Shown piece by piece: positions 41,010 through 52,149 of a stretch of DNA of 64,000 bases. Both the position numbers and the translations under genes were made by a program. This stretch comes from Phytoactinopolyspora alkaliphila (GTDB lineage: Bacteria; Actinomycetota; Actinomycetes; Jiangellales; Jiangellaceae). Location of the stretch: positions 124,001 through 188,000 of the forward strand of contig NZ_JAAGOB010000011.1 of assembly GCF_010550695.1 (NCBI RefSeq). The letters are read 5' to 3'. The notes beneath the pieces were generated by a model. The model worked only from the letters and a program-made list of their open reading frames with translations. It did no database searches and was not told the DNA's origin. Every line of letters starts with the position of its first letter. The stretch's first letter is position 1.

Positions 41010-44000
41010 CTACCGGAAGTCACGGCTGCCGGTACTCCCCGTGACCTTCAACGGTGCCAGCCGGATGGCGAGCAGGTTGATCGCGCCGTCGGAACGTTCG
41101 AGCTTGCCGTCGACGAGGACCGCGGTCGACTCCAGGGCTATCTTGCGCTGCCGCTGCCACACCCCCGGCGGACAGATCACGTTGACCATGCCACTTTCGT
41201 CCTCGACATTCATGAACACCACCCCGCCGGCGGTCGGCGGCCGCTGCCGATGGGTGATCAAACCGCCGACCATGAGCCGTCGCCCGTCGCCGAGGTGGCG
41301 CAGGTCGCCGGCGCGGACGGCTCCCCATGTGTCCAGCAGCTCACGCACATGCTGGACCGGGTGGCTGTCGGGAGACACGCCTGTGGCCCACAGATCCGCG
41401 AAGGTCTGTTCTACGGCGGTCATCTTGGGCAGTGCCGGCGGCGCCGAGCCCGGCGTCGTCCCCGGCAACTGATCCGAGCGATCGTGGACCAGCGCGCCGA
41501 CCGCCCAGAGCGCCTCTCTGCGGTCAAGGCCGAAGCAGCCGAACGCGCCCGCCGTGGCGAGCGATTCGAGGACCGCCAACGGCACCGTGCAACGACGCAC
41601 CAGGTCCGCGATGTCGTCGAATGGTCTCGCGTCGGCGATCCGCTGAGCGACGTCCGTCCCGAGTCCACGAACCGTGGACAATCCCAGGCGAATCGCGGGC
41701 TGCGGGCTCTCCGGAGCGTGCGGATGATCGGACTCCACCGGGAGATGCTCTTCCAGAGTCGCCTTGACATCGCTGGCGTTGACGTCGACGCCCCGGACGG
41801 TCACCCCGTGCCGCCGGGCGTCCTCCACCAGGGTTTGCGACGAGTAGAAACCCATCGGCTGGTTGTTGAGCAGTGCCGTGGTGAACACCGCGGGGTAATA
41901 ACGCTTCAGCCAGGAGCTGGCGTAGACGAGATAGGCGAAGCTGTACGCGTGGGACTCGGGGAACCCGTAGCTGGCGAAGCCGAACAGCTTGCCGTAGATG
42001 TCGTTGGCGACGTCGGCCGGGATGCCGTTCTTCGCCATCCCTTCGAGCAGGCGTGCACGCAGCCGCTCGATCCGTTCCGGCGACCGTTTCGAGCTCATCG
42101 CCTGACGTAGCTGATCGGCTTCCTTCGGCTGAAAGTCGGCGCAGTCGATGGCCAGCTGCATCATCTGCTCCTGGAACAGCGGCACGCCCTTGGTCCGCTC
42201 GAGCGCGGGCTTCATGCTCTTGTGCGGATAGGTGACCTCCTCTTGGCCATTCTTACGCCGGATGTAGGGGTGGACCGACCCACCTTGAATCGGTCCCGGC
42301 CGGATCAAGGCCACCTCGATGACCAAGTGGTAGAACGTGCGCGGCTTCAGCCGGGGCAGCGTCGCCATCTGGGCTCGGGACTCCACCTGGAAGACACCGA
42401 TCGTGTCGGCGTCACACAGCATGTCGTACACGGCCGGGTCCTCGGCCGGGAGGTCTCGCAGGGTGTGGTCGAGCTGATGGTGCTCCCGCAGAAGGTCGAA
42501 CGACTCCCGCAACGCGGACAACATGCCGAGGCCGAGCAGATCGAACTTGACCAGCCCCGCGGCCGCGCAGTCGTCTTTGTCCCACTGCAGCACGCTGCGC
42601 CCCGGCATGGTGGCCCACTCGACCGGGCACACCTCACCCACCGGGCGATCGCACAGCACCATGCCACCTGAGTGAATCGACAGGTGCCGCGGCAGCCGCA
42701 GCATCCGGTAGACCAGCCTGACGACGTCCTCGGGGATTCCGACGTCGTCCGCGATCGGTTCGTGATAGCCGACATGGCGTGACCAGCCGTCCACCTGACC
42801 AGGGCTGTACCCGAGCGCCCGGGCCACGTCCCGCAGCGCCATCCGTAGCCGGTAGGTGTTCACGTTGGCCACCTGCGCCGCGCGGTGCCGTCCATAGCGC
42901 TCGTAGACGTACTGGATGACCTCTTCGCGGCGGGCGTTCTCGATGTCGATATCGATGTCCGGCGGCCCGATACGGTCGTCGGTCAGGAAACGTTCGAAGA
43001 GCAGATCATGCTGAATGGGGTCCACGGCGGTGATGCCGAGGGCGTAGCAGACAGCGGAGTTGGCCGCCGAGCCCCGGCCCTGGCAGAGGATGCCCATCCG
43101 CTCGCAGAACTGCGTGATCTCGTAGACGATCAGGAAGTATCCGGGAAAGCCGAGCCGCTCGATGACCTCCAGCTCATGCTCGATCTGCTTGTACGCCTTT
43201 CTGGTGGCCTCGGTGCCGCGCGGCCCGTAGCGCTTCCGCGCACCCTTCTCCACCTCTTGACGCAAGAAGCTCGCGTCGGTGTGGCCGTCCGGAACGTCAC
43301 GCTCCGGGAGCTCCGGAGCGATGAGCGCGATATCGAAGGCACACGCCCGGGCCAGCTCCGCCGTCGCCTGCCTGACCCCCGGAAACCGGGCCAGCCGCTC
43401 CTCCATCTCAGCACCGTTGCGGATGTGCGCCGTACCGTTGGCCGGAAGCCAGCCGGCGATCTCCTCCATGCTGTCCCGCGCCCGGACAGCCGCGAGAAGC
43501 TGCGCCAGATCAGCGTCGCCAGGGCCCGCGTAATGCACATTGTTCGAGGCGACAACGCCTACCCCCACCTGCCGGGCCAACGCGAAGAGCGCGTCGTTGC
43601 GAGCGTCGTCGAGCGGGTGATCATGGTCGATCAGCTCGACGAAGACGTTCTCCACGCCGAACAGGTCAACCAACCGGCACAGCTCCTCCTCGGCCGCCGC
43701 CGGGCCGTCGCGATCCAGCGCAGCCGGGACGAGCCCCTTGCGGCATCCGGTCAGGACGGCCCAGTGGCCGTCGTGCCGTTCGGCCAGCTGGTTCAGGTCA
43801 TAGGCGGGCCGCCCCTTCTCCCCACTCATCTGCGCGTCGGTGATGGCGCCGGCAAGTCGCCCGTACCCCTCCGGGTCCCGGGCGAGGACGAGCAGATGGT
43901 GTCCCTCCGGATCAGGCACACCGGCCTGCCGTGTCCTCAGCTCCAGGCTGAGCTCGGCACCGAACACGGTGTGCAGCTTCCTCCCGGACAGCTCGAACGC

Positions 44001-44318
44001 CTCCCGAGCTGCTTCCGCGAAACGCACTACTCCGTACATGCCGTCGTGGTCGGTGATGGCGAGTGTCTCGACACCCTGCAAGATCGCCTCGATGACGAGA
44101 GCCTCGGGCTCCGACGCCCCGTCGAGGAAGCTGTAGGCCGAATGGCAGTGCAGTTCAGCCCACGCCGGTCCGTCGTTGACAGGAAGCGACAGGCCCGTCG
44201 CCTCAGGAGCAGGGTTCACCTCCCGGGGCAGCTTCTCACCGTCGCTGCGCCAGCCGGTCCCCCACGACAACGCCTTCTCGAACTCGCGCCAGGGAATCGA
44301 CGGATTATGCCAACCCAT
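41010..44318 (-). CDS. dnaE2: Error-prone DNA polymerase III alpha subunit DnaE2
   Basis: About 1102-residue C-family polymerase of the DnaE2 (ImuC) class, which does damage-induced translesion synthesis with ImuA'/ImuB. The PHP domain starts [22 protein letters not shown]. The catalytic aspartates are in [16 protein letters not shown] around residue 450. [20 protein letters not shown] and a C-terminal OB domain ([29 protein letters not shown]) follow. ATG 44318 gives the canonical [17 protein letters not shown] 44333 adds five residues. It lies 39 bp downstream of the HNH/DUF222 gene and 11 bp upstream of nucS. I find no convincing LexA box in the short gap before it. Confidence 0.95.
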
Positions 44319-44357
44319 GGCGTCTTTCGACATTCATCGAGTGGGGTGCTTTCTTGT

Positions 44358-46595
44358 TCATCGAACGGTGGGAGACGGCAACGGCGATGACGGCGGAGAC
44401 AGGCGTGGCAGCTCCACGAGCTGCTGGTGCCCTGATGGGCTGGTCCAGCGCTGTACGCCCGGTGCCACCTGCTCGACGCTCCAGCCGGCCCGATGCTTTT
44501 GCAGATGGCAGGGTTTGCACAATGCCGAGCAGTTACACGCCGAGGTCGTTCCCTTCGGATAAGGAACCCGATGATCGATCTCGCACCTGCGCGCTGGATG
44601 ATGGCATCCGGGCATGACGCATTCCTGATCACGCAACAAGACGAAGTCGACCAGATCTTGGGGTGGTGTGTAACGGGTTCGCCCGTAGTCCAAAGCGTGC
44701 CCGCCGACCGGATCGGTCAGAATCCAGCGCCACACTCCGGCCGCGGCCAGATGACGCGCGGTCTCCGGGTCGATCGGGCCATGACCTTCGAGGTGCGCCG
44801 GGTGCTCGTCCAGTCTGAGCCAGGTTGACAGCGACATGGTCATGTTCACCGAGACCGCCCGTCCATGCGCGCTCGGAAGCGGAACTCCGGAGACGGAACC
44901 ACAGCTGGCGCAGCCCACACCGCCGACCCGGCCGGTACGCAACGAGGTCCAGGCGAGCACGGCCAGCACATCCGCCTGCCGTTGCGCCGCGGTCCGCTTA
45001 GCGCAGCCGCCGCACGGAGCCGGACCGACGGTGTGGGAGTGCTCGTCGGTCGCTCCGCTGTCGTTCGTCCCGCTGTCGTTCGTCCCGCTCTCACTCGCCC
45101 CGCTGTCGTTCGTCCCGCTGTCGCTCGTTCCGCTGTCGCTCGCCCCGCTGTCGCTCGTCCCGCTCTCACTCGCCCCGCTGTCGCTCGTCCCGCTCTCACT
45201 CGCCCCGCTGTCGCTCGTCCCGCTCTCACTCGCCCCGCTGTCGCTCGTCCCGCTCTCACTCGCCCCGCTGTCGCTCGTCCCGCTCTCGCTCGCCCCGCTG
45301 TCGCTCGTCCCGCTCTCGCTCGCCCCGCTGTCGTTCGTCCCGCTCTCGCTCGCCCAGCTCTCGCCGCCTGGTTCTTCTCCGCCTGATCGACCGTACTGAT
45401 TGGGGCACGTGTGCGAGTGGGCACAATCGAGCCCCTTCTCGGCCTCAGCGCCGGCCTTGATCGTCGCCATGATCGCCGCGACTTGTTCAACTGGCAGGTA
45501 GGCATGCAGCCAGGACATCCCGTCCCGCCCCGGCTCGCTCCACACCTCACGTTCTTCACGAGCACGACGATTCTTCTTCGCCGACTCCGGGGCGAGCTCA
45601 TGGATCAAGCGGCGCAGTACCCGGCGCAACTTCACTGACGTCCACGTGTGCACATGCGGAAGGACCGCCGCCTCAACCAGGCGAGCGATATCGTCGTCTT
45701 GCGTACCAAGCTCGGCAAGAATGATCCCAGCTCTGTGATTATCCAAGCGCCCCTCGGCGAGAGTTCGATGCGTAGCCGGGAATCGCTCTACAAGCTTCAC
45801 GGAGTCTCGGACACGCCGTTCTGCCTGAGGCTTGGTCCACGGCCATACCGTGCACATATCGCCCGCGGTGACAGCTTCCGGTGACAATGACCCGAAGCGC
45901 CGATCGTCGTCGACCCGCATCTCCTCGCGCTTGGTCAGTGCGGTAAGCGCCTCGGCCTGGCGCGCTTGTACCCACGCCGTCAGTCGCTCCCATCCTGCGG
46001 CGACCTCGGCCAGCTCGAATGCACCGAGCTGGGCCAGGTCGGCACCATCCAGGACCGCCCCCAGCTCGACACCCGGCGCCATGTCCCAAGCGCCCGGCGT
46101 AGGAACTTCAGACGACTCAGTAGTCTCCCCGGCCGAGCCGGCCGAGACAGTCGAGACAGTCGAGACGGTCGAGACAGTCGAGACGGCGGCCGGTCCAGGC
46201 GTTGCAGGCTCAGTGGTCGATCCGGTGGACCTAACGGCAGTCGTTCCAGCTTCGGCAAGGGGTGCGGTCACCGTCGTGGTCGATGCGGCCGTTTCTTCGC
46301 CGATGGGCCACACCGGACAGGTCGACCACTGATCTTCATTCAACGGAGCGCCGTACCCGGACAGATCGGCAAGCTCGTCCCACGTCAACGGACGAGATGG
46401 CGACTCAGGCAACCGGCCATGTACCGCGGCCAAGGCCGAACACAACGCCACCACTTCGGCGTCAACAAGCTCCACCCAGCGAGCGTCGGCATACCCTCCC
46501 GCGTCACGGCCGGGGTCAGTGCGCTCGAGCTCATCCAGACCAGCAGGGGATCTTCCCGCCAGCCTGGAGCTCTTCGCACAACCCTGATCGAACAC
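44358..46595 (-). CDS. DUF222/HNH endonuclease-signature protein with a pentapeptide-repeat linker
   Basis: 745-residue protein of the actinobacterial DUF222-HNH (13E12-repeat-like) family. The DUF222 part spans about 180-400 (AELAEVAAGWERLTAWVQARQAEALTAL region). Around 420-520 comes a low-complexity linker of 20 G-(T/A)-(S/N)-(D/E)-S-type pentapeptides. The HNH motif is at the C-terminus: CVMPGCHHPARRCEIDHRVPYPKGTTSACNCSALCKPCHLQKH. The GTG at 46595 lies inside a LexA-like box and about 8 bp from a TATACT -10 box, implying a leaderless, damage-inducible mRNA. dnaE2 follows after 39 bp. The nuclease activity and role are not established for the family. Confidence 0.85.
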   Translation of the reverse strand: MFDQGCAKSSRLAGRSPAGLDELERTDPGRDAGGYADARWVELVDAEVVALCSALAAVHGRLPESPSRPLTWDELADLSGYGAPLNEDQWSTCPVWPIGEETAASTTTVTAPLAEAGTTAVRSTGSTTEPATPGPAAVSTVSTVSTVSTVSAGSAGETTESSEVPTPGAWDMAPGVELGAVLDGADLAQLGAFELAEVAAGWERLTAWVQARQAEALTALTKREEMRVDDDRRFGSLSPEAVTAGDMCTVWPWTKPQAERRVRDSVKLVERFPATHRTLAEGRLDNHRAGIILAELGTQDDDIARLVEAAVLPHVHTWTSVKLRRVLRRLIHELAPESAKKNRRAREEREVWSEPGRDGMSWLHAYLPVEQVAAIMATIKAGAEAEKGLDCAHSHTCPNQYGRSGGEEPGGESWASESGTNDSGASESGTSDSGASESGTSDSGASESGTSDSGASESGTSDSGASESGTSDSGASESGTSDSGASDSGTSDSGTNDSGASESGTNDSGTNDSGATDEHSHTVGPAPCGGCAKRTAAQRQADVLAVLAWTSLRTGRVGGVGCASCGSVSGVPLPSAHGRAVSVNMTMSLSTWLRLDEHPAHLEGHGPIDPETARHLAAAGVWRWILTDPVGGHALDYGRTRYTPPQDLVDFVLLRDQECVMPGCHHPARRCEIDHRVPYPKGTTSACNCSALCKPCHLQKHRAGWSVEQVAPGVQRWTSPSGHQQLVELPRLSPPSSPLPSPTVR
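45055..45354 (-). repeat. Minisatellite of about 20 x 15 bp inside the DUF222/HNH gene
   Basis: Plus-strand unit CCGCTGTCGCTCGTC with variants (CTC for GTC, TTC or ACT in the middle). Units alternate in pairs, so a 30-bp super-repeat is visible. It is translated from the minus strand as SGTSD/SGASE pentapeptides. Because the unit is five codons, copy-number change keeps the frame. Confidence 0.9.
46144..46188 (-). repeat. Five 9-bp repeats in the N-terminal part of the DUF222/HNH gene
   Basis: GAGACAGTC-type units at 46144, 46153, 46162, 46171 and a degenerate one at 46180. They encode a run of TVS tripeptides in a Thr/Ser/Val-rich segment before DUF222. Confidence 0.8.
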
Positions 46596-46631
46596 ATGTC
46601 CGAGTATAATCGAACAAACTTTCCCTCACAA
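46588..46631 (-). promoter_or_regulatory. LexA-controlled leaderless promoter of the DUF222/HNH-dnaE2-nucS unit
   Basis: On the minus strand TTGTGA (46631-46626), a 17-bp spacer and TATACT (46608-46603) form a good promoter. Transcription would begin at about 46596, at the GTG codon 46595. TCGAACACATGTCCGA (46588-46603, plus strand) matches the actinobacterial SOS box TCGAAC-N4-GTTCGA at 11 of 12 arm positions and covers the start site. LexA bound there would block the promoter. Confidence 0.7.
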
Positions 46632-46701
46632 GTCCCCCACCAGCATCTCAGAGAAAATCTTGATAGATCTCCAGAGGGGCGAACCCTCGGCGCTGGTCAG
46701 T

Positions 46702-47478
46702 TCAGCGCGGCGGCCCCGCCGCAATCCTGGCGAGCAGTTCCTCACGGGGCTCTTCGGGGTGCCGAGGTCCGTCAAGAGCCCACGTGGCCCCGGCCGCGGC
46801 GAGGTCATCAGCAGATGCGGAATCGGTCAGCACACCGACGACATCGAACCCAGCCGGAGGGTTCAGGCGTTCCACCAACGCGGACAGCTCAGCCGGGGTA
46901 GGCGCCGCCAGCCCGGACAAAGGGTAAATCCCGTCCACACGTAGCGCACGGGCCAGCGGGCGGTCACGACCAACCGTAGCCGCCGCCCAGATGGGCGGCC
47001 GGGGGGTTTGCAGTGCAGGCGGATCCAGCTGCGCGTGTACCTGGTAATGTTCACCGTCATGATCCACGCGGTCCCCCCGCAGGAACGCGTCGAGCAGAGG
47101 CAACGCCTCGTCGAGCCGGGCCGCATGCTCCGGCACTGAGGTGGACTCCCCGAACGCGCCGTACTCGGCATCGACCGGAACCCCTAGCCCCACACCCAGG
47201 ATGGCCCGGCCCTCACTGACATGGTCCAGAGTCACCACTTCCTTGGCCAGCTTCCAAGGCCGCCGCCGCGGAACCGGCGTCACCAGCGTCCCGAGACGCA
47301 CTCGGGTGGTACGGGCTGCCATCGCGCCCAACACAACCCACGGGTCATGCATCTGCGGCAGGGCATTGACGTGGTCCCACACGAAGAAGCCATCCCATCC
47401 CGCGTCGTCAGCGACAACGGCCAGGTCGATCAACGACGACGGGGTTCCGACGTTGGGCATACTCACTCCGAAGCGCAT
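46702..47478 (-). CDS. LLM-class flavin/F420-dependent oxidoreductase
   Basis: 258-residue luciferase-like protein, shorter than most members. AVVADDAGWDGFFVWDHVN, RVRLGTLVTPVPRRRPWKLAKEVVTLDHVSEGRAILGVGLG and RPPIWAAATVGRDRPLARALRVDGIYP are the landmarks. ATG 47478 starts the conserved MRFGVSMPNVG. The frame stays open upstream through a 15-bp tandem repeat to 47730, where each unit carries in-frame GTG codons, so an N-terminally extended form is possible but unlikely. It is a paralogue of the LLM gene at 20536-21492. It lies 106 bp before the DUF222/HNH promoter region. Confidence 0.82.
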   Translation of the reverse strand: MRFGVSMPNVGTPSSLIDLAVVADDAGWDGFFVWDHVNALPQMHDPWVVLGAMAARTTRVRLGTLVTPVPRRRPWKLAKEVVTLDHVSEGRAILGVGLGVPVDAEYGAFGESTSVPEHAARLDEALPLLDAFLRGDRVDHDGEHYQVHAQLDPPALQTPRPPIWAAATVGRDRPLARALRVDGIYPLSGLAAPTPAELSALVERLNPPAGFDVVGVLTDSASADDLAAAGATWALDGPRHPEEPREELLARIAAGPPR

Positions 47479-47520
47479 GGGGCTACGTCTACCACCCGGC
47501 ACTGACAACGCCGCACTCTC

Positions 47521-47730
47521 CGACCCCTTGTTCACCAACCCCGTGTGCACCGACCCCGTGTGCACCAACCCCTTGTTCACCAACCCCGTGTGCACCAACC
47601 CCGTGTGCACCAACCCCGTGTTCACCGACCCCGTGTGCACCAACCCCGTGTGCACCAACCCCGTGTGCACCAACCCCGTGTGCACCAACCCCGTGTGCAC
47701 CAACCCCGTGTGCACCCACCCCGCATTCAC
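47521..47730. repeat. Minisatellite of 14 x 15 bp upstream of the LLM gene
   Basis: Consensus CAACCCCGTGTGCAC, one unit each 15 bp from 47521 to 47730. Variants replace GTGTGCAC with TTGTTCAC or GTGTTCAC and CAA with CGA. Nine units carry the palindromic GTGCAC end together with the GTGTG core. The array begins at the stop codon of the DUF6886-like gene and ends 42 bp before the LLM ATG. On the minus strand all units are open as VHTGL pentapeptides. Confidence 0.92.
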
Positions 47731-49912: not shown

Positions 49913-49942
49913 TTGACAAGCATCGAACACAAGTTCGATAGT
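49913..49942 (+). promoter_or_regulatory. LexA-controlled leaderless promoter of imuA'-imuB
   Basis: TTGACA (49913-49918) and GATAGT (49937-49942), 18 bp apart; six bases later is the GTG start 49949, so the transcript is probably leaderless. TCGAACACAAGTTCGA (49923-49938) is a perfect-arm SOS box lying between -35 and -10. Confidence 0.88.
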
Positions 49943-49948
49943 TGAGGG

Positions 49949-50620
49949 GTGGTGACAGGGCGACAGCAGCAGGCGGCAGAAGCACTGGCCAGCGTGGCCG
50001 GCAAGCCCTCTGACGTCGCCTCGGAGAGTACCGGGCTGCCGGTCCTACCGGCGCTGCAAGGGCTTCTGCCCATGTTGCGCCGCGGGCAGGTGGTGGAGGT
50101 CGACGGCTCCGGTGCCCTCTCCCTGGCTCTGCTCGCCGGCGCGTCGCAGAGTGGATCGTGGTGTGGCGTCGTCGGTATGCCCGAGGGCGGGATGCTCGCG
50201 GCCTCCGAGATGGGCTGCGACCTCGACCGGCTTCTCCTGGTGGACCATCCAGGAGACAGGTGGGTGGACGTCACGGCCGCCTTGCTGGAAGCCGTCGACG
50301 TCGTACTGCTCCGGCCACCCGTGCGCCCCCAGACCGGCGTCGTCCGGCGGCTGGTGGCCCTTGCCAGGAAATCCGGTTCCATGCTGATCGCTGCCGGTGC
50401 CTGGGAGGGGTCGTCCGTGCGGCTCCGAGTCGAGTCGTCGCTGTGGACGGGCCTGGAACACGGCCACGGGCACCTGCGTGGCCGACGAGTCAAGATCGTC
50501 GCCGAGGGCCGCGGGGCTGGTGGACGTCCTCGGTCGGCCTGGGTATGGCTTCCTGGGCCGGACGGATCGGTGAGCCCGGCCGAGCTGGCGGTTGTCCACG
50601 ATTCCGCCGAGGTCGCCTGA
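49949..50620 (+). CDS. imuA': RecA-like mutasome protein ImuA'
   Basis: 223-residue RecA-fold protein lacking a canonical Walker A. LRRGQVVEVDGSGALSLALLAGASQSGSWCGVVGMPEGGMLAASEMGCDLDRLLLVDHPG follows the family pattern, with VVEVDGSGALSL at the degenerate P-loop. In mycobacteria ImuA' bridges ImuB and RecA during DnaE2-dependent mutagenesis (family knowledge). The GTG at 49949 is 10 bp after the LexA box; a second GTG at 49952 follows. The stop overlaps the imuB ATG (TGATG). Confidence 0.88.
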   Translation: MVTGRQQQAAEALASVAGKPSDVASESTGLPVLPALQGLLPMLRRGQVVEVDGSGALSLALLAGASQSGSWCGVVGMPEGGMLAASEMGCDLDRLLLVDHPGDRWVDVTAALLEAVDVVLLRPPVRPQTGVVRRLVALARKSGSMLIAAGAWEGSSVRLRVESSLWTGLEHGHGHLRGRRVKIVAEGRGAGGRPRSAWVWLPGPDGSVSPAELAVVHDSAEVA

Positions 50621-52149
50621 TGACCGCCCCCAGAGCCCTGGTGGTCTGGTGCCCGGACTGGCCGCTCACCGCGGCCGGCACCGACCCGGCCGTGCCTGCT
50701 TTGGTACTCGCCTCCGGCAGGGTGTCCGCGTGCACGGCCGCGGCTCGAGCCACCGGTGTCCGCCGCGGCCAGCGGCTCCGTGACGCCCAGCGATACTGCC
50801 CCGACGTCGCCGTTCTCGACGAGGACCCCGAAGGCGAGACGCGAGCCTTCGAACAGGTCGTCGCTGTCATCGAGCAGAGCTGTCCGCGGGTGGAGGTCAT
50901 CCGCCCCGGCCTCGCCGCGGTACCGGCCCGCGGGCCGAGCCGATACTTCGGCGGCGAGGAGATCGTGGCGGGCATGGTGCGTGACGCGGTGCTGGAGCGG
51001 GATTTCGTCTGTGCCGTCGGAGTCGCCGACGGCACCTTCGCCGCGGATCTCGCGGCTCGGGCCGCGTTCGAGGCCGACGACGGCATCCGCCTGGTGCCGT
51101 CCGCCTCCACCGCGGGGTTCCTGGCACCCCACCCGGTGCCGGTGCTGGAGATGCCGGAGCTCGCCGGTGTCCTGGTCCGGCTCGGGATCCGCACCCTCGG
51201 TGATCTCGCCGCGCTATCCATGCGCGACGTGCTGGGCCGGTTCGGCTCCGAGGGCGCCGTGGCGCACCGGCTGGCCACCGGCCTGGAAGCTCGCCCTCCG
51301 GCCGCCCGGTCCCCCGGTGACGATCTCTCGGCTCAATTCGAGTTCGACCCGCCCATCGACCAGTCGGAGCCGGCGGTCTTCGCCGCCAAGAGCCTCGCTG
51401 ATCTGATGCACGCCAAACTCGGCGAACGCGGCCTGGCGTGCGTGCGGGTGGAGGTCGAGGTCAGCACCGCCGACGGCCAGAGCCGGTCCCGCCTGTGGCG
51501 CCATGACGGCCTGCTCTCCAGCCTCGCGGTCGCCGAACGGGTGCGCTGGCAGCTCGACGCCTGGAGAACAGCGGGACAGCTGACCGGCAGTCTGACCCAC
51601 CTGACCCTGGCACCGGACCAGGTGGTGATCGACACCGGGCGGCAGCTGACCCTGTGGGGGCAGACGGAGAACGACGAAGAAGTCTCCCGGGCGGCGACCC
51701 GGATCCAGGTCATGCTCGGGCACACGGCGGTGACCCGGCCCCGGCTGGCGGGCGGGCGCGGCCCAAGCGAACAGGTGGCCCGGGTGCCGTGGGGTGACAC
51801 GGCCATCGCGGCGCTTCCGGCCGATCGCCCCTGGCCGGGGCGGGTTCCACAACCGGCGCCGGCTGTCGTGCACCCAGCACCGCTTCCGGTTCGTCTGGTC
51901 GACGCCTCGGGCACGTCGGTCACCGTCAGCGGGCGATCGGTGGTGTCGGCGCCGCCCAGCCGGCTGGTGCTGGGCAAGGAGCATCTCGCCGTCACCGGCT
52001 GGACCGGTCCCTGGCCGGTACGCGAGTACTGGTGGGACCGCAGCCGGAGCCGGCGTTGCGCACGCTTCCAGGTCGCCACCGACGACGGCCGCGCCTGGCT
52101 GCTCGTCGTCGAGCAGGGTGAGTGGTTCGCCGAGGCCACGTACACCTGA
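50620..52149 (+). CDS. imuB: Catalytically inactive Y-family polymerase ImuB
   Basis: 509-residue Y-family homologue that acts as the hub linking DnaE2 to the beta clamp. The first acidic motif is lost: the N-terminus reads ALVVWCPDWPLTAAG instead of the usual DxDxFxxSVE, and residues 95-103 (RPGLAAVPA) replace the SxDE motif. The clamp-binding motif QLTLW is at 342-346. The C-terminal ImuB-specific region ends VREYWWDRSRSRRCARFQVATDDGRAWLLVVEQGEWFAEATY. The ATG overlaps the imuA' stop. dnaE2 is not adjacent but about 6.3 kb to the left, in the opposite orientation. Confidence 0.94.
   Translation: MTAPRALVVWCPDWPLTAAGTDPAVPALVLASGRVSACTAAARATGVRRGQRLRDAQRYCPDVAVLDEDPEGETRAFEQVVAVIEQSCPRVEVIRPGLAAVPARGPSRYFGGEEIVAGMVRDAVLERDFVCAVGVADGTFAADLAARAAFEADDGIRLVPSASTAGFLAPHPVPVLEMPELAGVLVRLGIRTLGDLAALSMRDVLGRFGSEGAVAHRLATGLEARPPAARSPGDDLSAQFEFDPPIDQSEPAVFAAKSLADLMHAKLGERGLACVRVEVEVSTADGQSRSRLWRHDGLLSSLAVAERVRWQLDAWRTAGQLTGSLTHLTLAPDQVVIDTGRQLTLWGQTENDEEVSRAATRIQVMLGHTAVTRPRLAGGRGPSEQVARVPWGDTAIAALPADRPWPGRVPQPAPAVVHPAPLPVRLVDASGTSVTVSGRSVVSAPPSRLVLGKEHLAVTGWTGPWPVREYWWDRSRSRRCARFQVATDDGRAWLLVVEQGEWFAEATYT

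Follow-up and report, generated by a model that had tools for sequence, protein, structure and literature searches.

How can one short stretch of DNA act as a repressor site and also spell the first codons of the gene it controls? The question is raised by a 64,000-nucleotide (nt) region of Phytoactinopolyspora alkaliphila (contig NZ_JAAGOB010000011.1, positions 124,001 to 188,000 of the forward strand). We call this whole stretch the window, and coordinates refer to it unless another locus is named. Within it, a LexA-like box lies across the start codon of a gene for a DUF222 protein with an HNH nuclease domain. We consider it likely that the box at 46588-46603 serves as LexA operator for an SOS operon of two genes, the DUF222/HNH nuclease gene and dnaE2, transcribed from a leaderless sigma-70-type promoter. 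The elements of this predicted operon are listed here, with distances in base pairs (bp) and protein length in amino acids (aa).

46626..46631, minus strand: -35 element TTGTGA, with a 17-nt spacer before the -10 element
46610..46615, minus strand: additional GTTCGA half-site, preceding the GTTCGA of the box by 22 bp (two helical turns); also in genomes G001 and G004
46603..46608, minus strand: -10 element TATACT, whose terminal T (46603) is the opening T of the box
46588..46603, minus strand: LexA (SOS) box, forward letters TCGAACACATGTCCGA, gene strand TCGGACATGTGTTCGA, called from sequence and family conservation
46593..46595, minus strand: GTG start codon and predicted leaderless transcript start; G001 has the same layout
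46587..46592, minus strand: codons 2-3, TTC GAT (Phe-Asp), which the right half-site spells
44358..46595, minus strand: DUF222/HNH gene, 745 aa, PF02720 at 73.9 bits (cut-off 24.4)
41010..44333, minus strand: dnaE2, error-prone DNA polymerase, 24 bp past the DUF222 stop

The box fits the actinobacterial LexA box at 11 of 12 fixed positions (operator model TCGAACNNNNGTTCGA) and differs by a single mismatch from the mycobacterial SOS box consensus, TCGAAC(N)4GTTCGA (PMC4181829; this and the other papers are cited here from partial text). The original prediction had placed a TCGAAC-ACAT-GTCCGA box over GTG 46595, behind a TTGTGA-17-TATACT promoter, and we confirmed this arrangement: the promoter is the sole promoter-like match in 46500-46800 (50 shuffles: mean 0.0, standard deviation 0.2). 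On the minus strand, a gap of 7 nt separates TATACT from the GTG, which lies at offset 8 inside the box. The half-site GTTCGA consists of the final G of this GTG, codon 2 (TTC) and the first two letters of codon 3 (GA). An in-frame stop codon occurs 30 nt upstream of GTG 46595, and since no ATG, GTG or TTG lies in frame between the two, this GTG is the earliest possible start. A further triplet in the box, ATG 46597, is out of frame with DUF222. We saw no Shine-Dalgarno-like sequence ahead of the GTG by inspection. The gene therefore has both features of a leaderless gene, a -10 element about 6-7 nt before the start and no Shine-Dalgarno sequence, and transcription is predicted to begin at the GTG itself. 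The extra GTTCGA at 46610-46615 is a candidate second, weak operator, with possible tandem LexA binding.

The polymerase gene 24 bp downstream, a neighbour that the original prediction overlooked, probably forms an operon with the DUF222/HNH gene at its head. We found no LexA box of its own for dnaE2 with fewer than four mismatches in 44201-46560, which leaves 46588-46603 as the only candidate operator seen for it; dnaE2 is perhaps the main target of the site. We searched 40 genomes for dnaE2 and read the upstream region of 20 dnaE2 genes. A DUF222 gene lies upstream in five (G001, G003, G005, G008 and G011), 13 are without it in the stretch examined, and two (G002, G009) are unreadable because of contig ends. 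Among readable dnaE2 orthologues of at least 72% identity, the order DUF222-dnaE2 occurs in six of nine, namely our genome and these five. A box with at most two mismatches is present at the DUF222 start in all five readable cases (one mismatch in our genome, G001 and G008; two in G003 and G005). Its relation to the start codon varies. G001 has an ATG at the same place in the box as the GTG of the window, G003 has an MFE start 29 nt past the start of its box, with GTTCGA and no left half at the start codon, G005 starts 6 nt past a -10 element located after the box, and G008 starts downstream of the box, behind a Shine-Dalgarno-like GGAGG. Where the nuclease is missing (G004, G017 and G018), dnaE2 itself has a one-mismatch box no more than about 140 bp upstream. 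G004 retains the promoter, box and first codons of a lost DUF222 gene, with ACG where the start codon stood.

That such control might be a family trait had also been proposed, and comparing DUF222 upstream regions bore this out. We collected 103 DUF222 loci: 14 from our genome, the best match of each of 29 other genomes, and 60 more from among the matches listed (at most four per genome, restricted to matches that extend into the N-terminal part of the domain; 5 of 65 were dropped). Two loci were dropped for a missing start region, and the remaining 101 include paralogues and are not phylogenetically independent. A box with at most two mismatches occurs at 44 of the 101 starts (reversed control: 1 of 101), one with at most one mismatch at 25 (control 1), and a perfect box at 10 (control 0). 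Half of the 44 boxes enclose an in-frame start, at offset 8 (17 boxes) or offset 6 (5 boxes) and at no other offset; in 15 cases the first start follows 14-60 nt downstream of the box, and 7 are placed otherwise. By these counts, the start-in-operator layout is common, though not universal, in the DUF222 family.

The boxes also keep two fixed distances to a -10 element. In 14 of 44 cases the -10 element begins 5 bases before the box and ends on its first T (shuffled flanks: mean 1.7, maximum 7 in 1000 shuffles), and in 13 of 44 it begins 16-18 bases after the start of the box (mean 1.6, maximum 6 in 1000 shuffles). A further peak of 11 TAnnnT matches at +7 is produced by the box's own bases. 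As a -10 control, TnnnAT proved unusable since it overlaps TAnnnT bases (7 at -5, 10 at +16 to +18, 17 at +11). LexA thus seems to sit in one of two registers, either over the transcript start (+1) and the start codon or just upstream of the -10 element, and the window holds one of each, at the DUF222/HNH gene and at imuA'.

Many DUF222 starts also carry a PafBC-type promoter. PafBC-dependent promoters have the form TGTCGG-N10-TA-N3-T and variants (PMC8151990), and we found TGTCRG-N10-TAnnnT at 63 of the 101 starts (control 0). The first in-frame start lies 6-7 nt past the -10 element in 55 of the 62 PafBC-type genes for which a start was found, all 55 being ATG, so the short distance between -10 and start is the norm among PafBC-type promoters. 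Both PafBC element and LexA box are present at 21 of 101 starts, and neither at 15. At the DUF222/HNH gene of the window, no TGTCRG stands 10 nt before TAnnnT; GGAAAG occupies the place, and we dropped PafBC control of this gene.

We also ran scans that did not start from DUF222. The pattern TGTCRGTGGN7TANNNTN7ATGTTCGA, searched over genome contigs, hit at least 119 stretches, of which 80 were read, giving 81 sites; the matches listed are all from actinobacteria, many of them mycobacteria. Sites picked solely by the PafBC element, the -10 element and ATGTTCGA have at least four of the five left-half bases CGAAC in 45 of 78 unique cases, against 0.7 expected. Open reading frames (ORFs) below 100 aa (12 of 81) were kept out of the Pfam search; of the other 69, 54 are DUF222. 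Two of the non-DUF222 genes with PafBC-type leaderless promoters and Met-Phe-Asp/Glu starts encode an SNF2-type helicase (L194, 2790-5594) and a glyoxalase-like protein (L165, 3221-3556).

The composite pattern TANNNTCGNACNNRTGTTCGA was found in 90 of 296 genomes of the class, with one match for the reversed control among the matches listed. From at least 124 sites we examined 90 (30 loci plus one each from 60 of 62 other genomes), and 61 of these open a reading frame of 60 aa or more: 38 DUF222, 4 UvrD, 1 dUTPase, 1 glyoxalase-like, 1 LysM and 16 none of these. In all four UvrD-type helicases, the start codon lies in a full LexA box (L281 MFD, L291 MFE, L305 VFD, L306 VFD); these sites were preselected by the GTTCGA pattern and therefore demonstrate use of the layout by unrelated genes but give no measure of its frequency. 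At the other 29 of the 90 sites, no frame opened by the RTG (R, A or G) reaches 60 aa; shorter frames were kept out of the domain search, and these sites were counted as misses. Nine of them (L352, L357-L360, L362, L363, L365, L366) precede a small LysM-type gene with the motif RLTRRGRL, several as tandem LexA boxes, and L353 identifies the product as a LysM protein. We take this gene to resemble the cell-division suppressor gene divergent from lexA. The other 20 are later-start genes or chance.

Why should an operator hold a start codon at all? Among 75 perfect boxes drawn from the matches listed in 60 genomes, some of them DUF222 starts, 58 have RTG at offset 8 on either strand, against 10.8 expected for independent bases at 70% GC. 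A start codon is therefore a frequent part of the LexA site as such, and we infer that a -10 element whose last base is the opening T of the box could convert it into a leaderless gene start. The refined M. tuberculosis LexA motif, MKWMTCGAAMRYWTGTTCGA (PMC4181829), is similar in shape, and we suggest that it merges the -10 element with the box and, in the case of HNH genes, with the start codon as well.

Several findings weigh against the operator reading. The box carries a mismatch, and loose matches are plentiful: at two or fewer mismatches the window holds 30 against 26.4 expected, which is chance level, and at one or fewer the genome holds 35 box sites against 15 for the reversed pattern, so that a single site is weak evidence. 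Two-mismatch matches also fall within genes, as they do in the stretches of G005 and G008, and the boxes of G003 and G005 are therefore weak one by one. In the survey, 57 of 101 DUF222 starts have no box at up to two mismatches, and the window copy is without the PafBC element that 63 of the 101 carry. By the best-matching box, the start lies in the box in two of the five readable DUF222-dnaE2 promoters (the window and G001), and at the 10 dnaE2 genes examined from further afield, DUF222 never stands ahead. Might 46588-46603 then be a chance match, with the gene controlled otherwise? The imperfect box and the 15 reversed sites would allow it, but the box sits on the core promoter, 7 of the 35 genome sites fall at the starts of the genome's 14 DUF222 loci or up to 130 nt upstream (compared by hand), every readable DUF222-dnaE2 promoter has a box, and dnaE2 has no other. 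Family enrichment and gene order led us to reject chance, despite the chance-level loose matches in the window, and we regard it as highly improbable; the evidential weight of the box stems from the family and not from the lone site. The exact pattern TCGAACNNNNGTNCGA occurs in the window only at the DUF222/HNH start and at imuA', and in the 5.5-Mb genome at five places (8 strand-matches; control 0 forward, 1 reverse). The genome has one LexA gene (PF01726, 1.6e-26), and two one-mismatch boxes precede its DNA-binding domain by about 0.2-0.3 kb. A real LexA site could also overlap the start by accident, the protein beginning elsewhere, at the in-frame GTG of codon 41 or with ATG 46597 opening a leader peptide. 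The first 165 or so residues are indeed poorly conserved, and the RTG preference of the operator core leads one to expect a start-like triplet in many boxes. Residues from about 45 onwards nevertheless align with G001, G003 and G005, G001 has its ATG in the same place of the box, relatives with a PafBC-type promoter start 6-7 nt past the -10 element in 55 of 62 cases, and starts inside boxes fall at offsets 8 and 6 only, which together make a start elsewhere rather improbable.

It is less easy to say what keeps codons 2 and 3. The original prediction held that repression through the start codon would force the box to be coding. Where box and start overlap the box is coding, and the four UvrD genes begin MFD, MFE or VFD; as a general rule, the claim holds only in part, for 25 of 38 leaderless Met-Phe-Asp/Glu DUF222 genes keep these codons with at most two of the five left-half bases. 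The operator is therefore not the sole possible keeper of the codons, and Met-Phe-Asp/Glu might be retained for the protein or for leaderless translation, with the right half-site a by-product of high-GC codons (TTC and GA-). Three genes that use TTT, harming the box and keeping Phe, favour such a constraint, as do L194 and L165, which also begin with Met-Phe-Asp/Glu, though the pattern that selected them demanded it. However, 24 of the 25 genes come from one genus (g3), which may simply be a lineage that has lost LexA control; elsewhere, 12 of 13 have at least three of the five left-half bases. On these sequences, the start codons of g3 outlived the operator, and outside it both go together. 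The view that the operator alone dictates these codons was thus weakened by the 25 genes and partly restored by the recount by genus. The UvrD starts also speak for the operator, although their pattern demanded GTTCGA. In a second DUF222 group, with ATG at offset 6, the same GTTCG is read in another frame as MSS or MRS, which favours conservation of the DNA, and the left half is enriched in the PafBC-type scan (45 of 78). We consider a protein constraint in place of the operator unlikely; selection on the operator and selection on the first codons may both act.

If the operator reading holds, a sigma-70-type promoter would transcribe the nuclease gene and dnaE2 together, in a leaderless transcript beginning at GTG 46595. 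In undamaged cells, LexA would cover the end of the -10 element, +1 and the first three codons and so keep RNA polymerase out. Upon damage, RecA-stimulated cleavage of LexA would free the promoter, nuclease and DnaE2 would be made together, and imuA'-imuB would be released in parallel from its own box. Repression by direct occupation of the start codon, as first proposed, does not describe this well: the final part of the -10 element and the predicted +1 fall within the box too, and the mechanism is likely ordinary exclusion of RNA polymerase. The start codon would be occupied because the transcript has no leader, not as a mechanism at the level of translation. With an operator core that prefers RTG-TTCGA, a box starting on the last T of a -10 element would yield a start codon followed by Phe and Asp/Glu. 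This compact module recurs at DUF222 genes of Actinomycetota and at some UvrD genes, frequently behind a PafBC-type element, which the window copy is without.

The protein itself has two recognizable parts.

45594..45974, minus strand: DUF222 core, residues 208-334; similar in its model to the ParB/Noc DNA-binding domain
44451..44678, minus strand: HNH nuclease domain, residues 640-715, McrA/IscB-like by profile and structural matches

The core model has a mean predicted local distance difference test score of 91.4, and its top ten structural matches are all ParB/Noc/Spo0J/KorB proteins (Z 10.2-6.7 over 96-103 residues at 2.2-3.4 Å; next entry 5.8), where for a helical fold a Z below 13 is no proof of a shared fold. 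The Foldseek E-value of 0.64 is not significant and the sequence profile reaches Spo0J at E 0.075, so the ParB-like fold is a lead only. For the HNH domain, Pfam gave no match at 0.001 in this protein; phrog_589 HNH matches at 1.8e-4, the family profile matches the HNH parts of IscB and McrA, and the C-terminal part matches EcoKMcrA (Z 6.8, 74 residues, 2.8 Å). The protein has no NCBIfam name at 0.001, and a role in anti-phage defence was dropped, there being no PADLOC match at 0.01. Between core and HNH domain (about 45000-45350) lies a long Ser/Gly/Asp-rich repeat of the SESGTSDSGA type, whose length differs strongly among relatives. DUF222 is a multicopy family, with up to 31 domain matches per genome among the matches listed. 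Five contigs of our genome (C1, C8, C9, C17 and C32) start or stop within DUF222 genes, which fits near-identical copies breaking the assembly.

The second LexA box of the window belongs to the other genes of DnaE2-dependent mutagenesis.

49923..49938, plus strand: perfect LexA box, between the TTGACA -35 element and the -10 region of imuA'-imuB
49949..50620, plus strand: imuA', DnaE2-dependent mutagenesis accessory factor (NF058630)
50158..52149, plus strand: open frame with imuB, profile match PF00817 at residues 180-300

The true start of imuB is probably well inside its frame. This box lies 3.3 kb from the one at the DUF222/HNH start, on the side away from dnaE2. As in the DnaE2-ImuA'-ImuB mutasome, dnaE2, imuA' and imuB are all present, within about 11 kb and with each unit behind a LexA box; unlike in that system, dnaE2 stands second, after a DUF222/HNH nuclease gene, and would depend on the box of that gene. 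Between the two boxes, a tandem repeat of the GTGCACCAACCCC type (47530-47720, HTGLV units, matching Pentapeptide_2) precedes a luciferase-like monooxygenase (ORF 46702-47730), which probably starts further in.

In M. tuberculosis, Rv3074 and Rv3776 are presumably members of the 13E12/DUF222 family. Both are described as HNH-related genes that have a LexA box and respond to moxifloxacin by induction, as dnaE2 does (PMC7911356). That LexA controls HNH genes is already known from mycobacteria, and the link to the damage response assumed in the original prediction is in print for mycobacterial HNH genes (PMC7911356, PMC8151990 and PMC4181829, the last naming 13E12). Like these genes, for which SOS induction has been shown, ours is an HNH gene with a LexA box; unlike the 13E12 genes of M. 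tuberculosis, it heads a probable dnaE2 operon, and its box overlaps the -10 element, +1 and the start. The pattern scan found the overlap of box and start in Mycobacterium species other than M. tuberculosis. A start codon that is also the transcript start has been shown experimentally for another SOS gene, the leaderless lexA of M. tuberculosis (PMC2897130), and is predicted here. Searches of the open-access literature, judged by titles, abstract openings and excerpts, returned no description of DUF222-dnaE2 operons or of LexA boxes over leaderless start codons, and we claim no novelty in print; nor did they return an experimentally supported function for DUF222. Another HNH nuclease, MSMEG_1275 of M. 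smegmatis, which may or may not belong to DUF222, cuts the chromosome of its own cell and kills it (PMC9416677); a self-cutting role is conceivable for the DUF222/HNH protein too. A single repair system composed of 13E12 HNH proteins and DnaE2/ImuAB has been proposed (PMC4181829), and joint production of DnaE2 and a DNA-binding HNH nuclease would agree with it.

More tentatively, and as a possibility to which we give somewhat less than even weight, a 37-bp module of PafBC element, -10 element, LexA box and start, with the operator fused to coding sequence so that its right half-site spells Met/Val-Phe-Asp/Glu, may have been reused by DUF222 nucleases and, minus the PafBC part, by unrelated SOS genes such as those for UvrD helicases, and in the family of the window a ParB-like DNA-binding HNH nuclease may provide DnaE2 with nicks or gaps for mutagenic synthesis. 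The DUF222-dnaE2 gene order provides a handle on DUF222 function, since nuclease and polymerase may share one mutagenic repair pathway. For annotators, the start-in-operator module shows where these proteins begin, and it offers a reason for the many Met-Phe-Asp/Glu starts, at which operator and first codons may be jointly selected.

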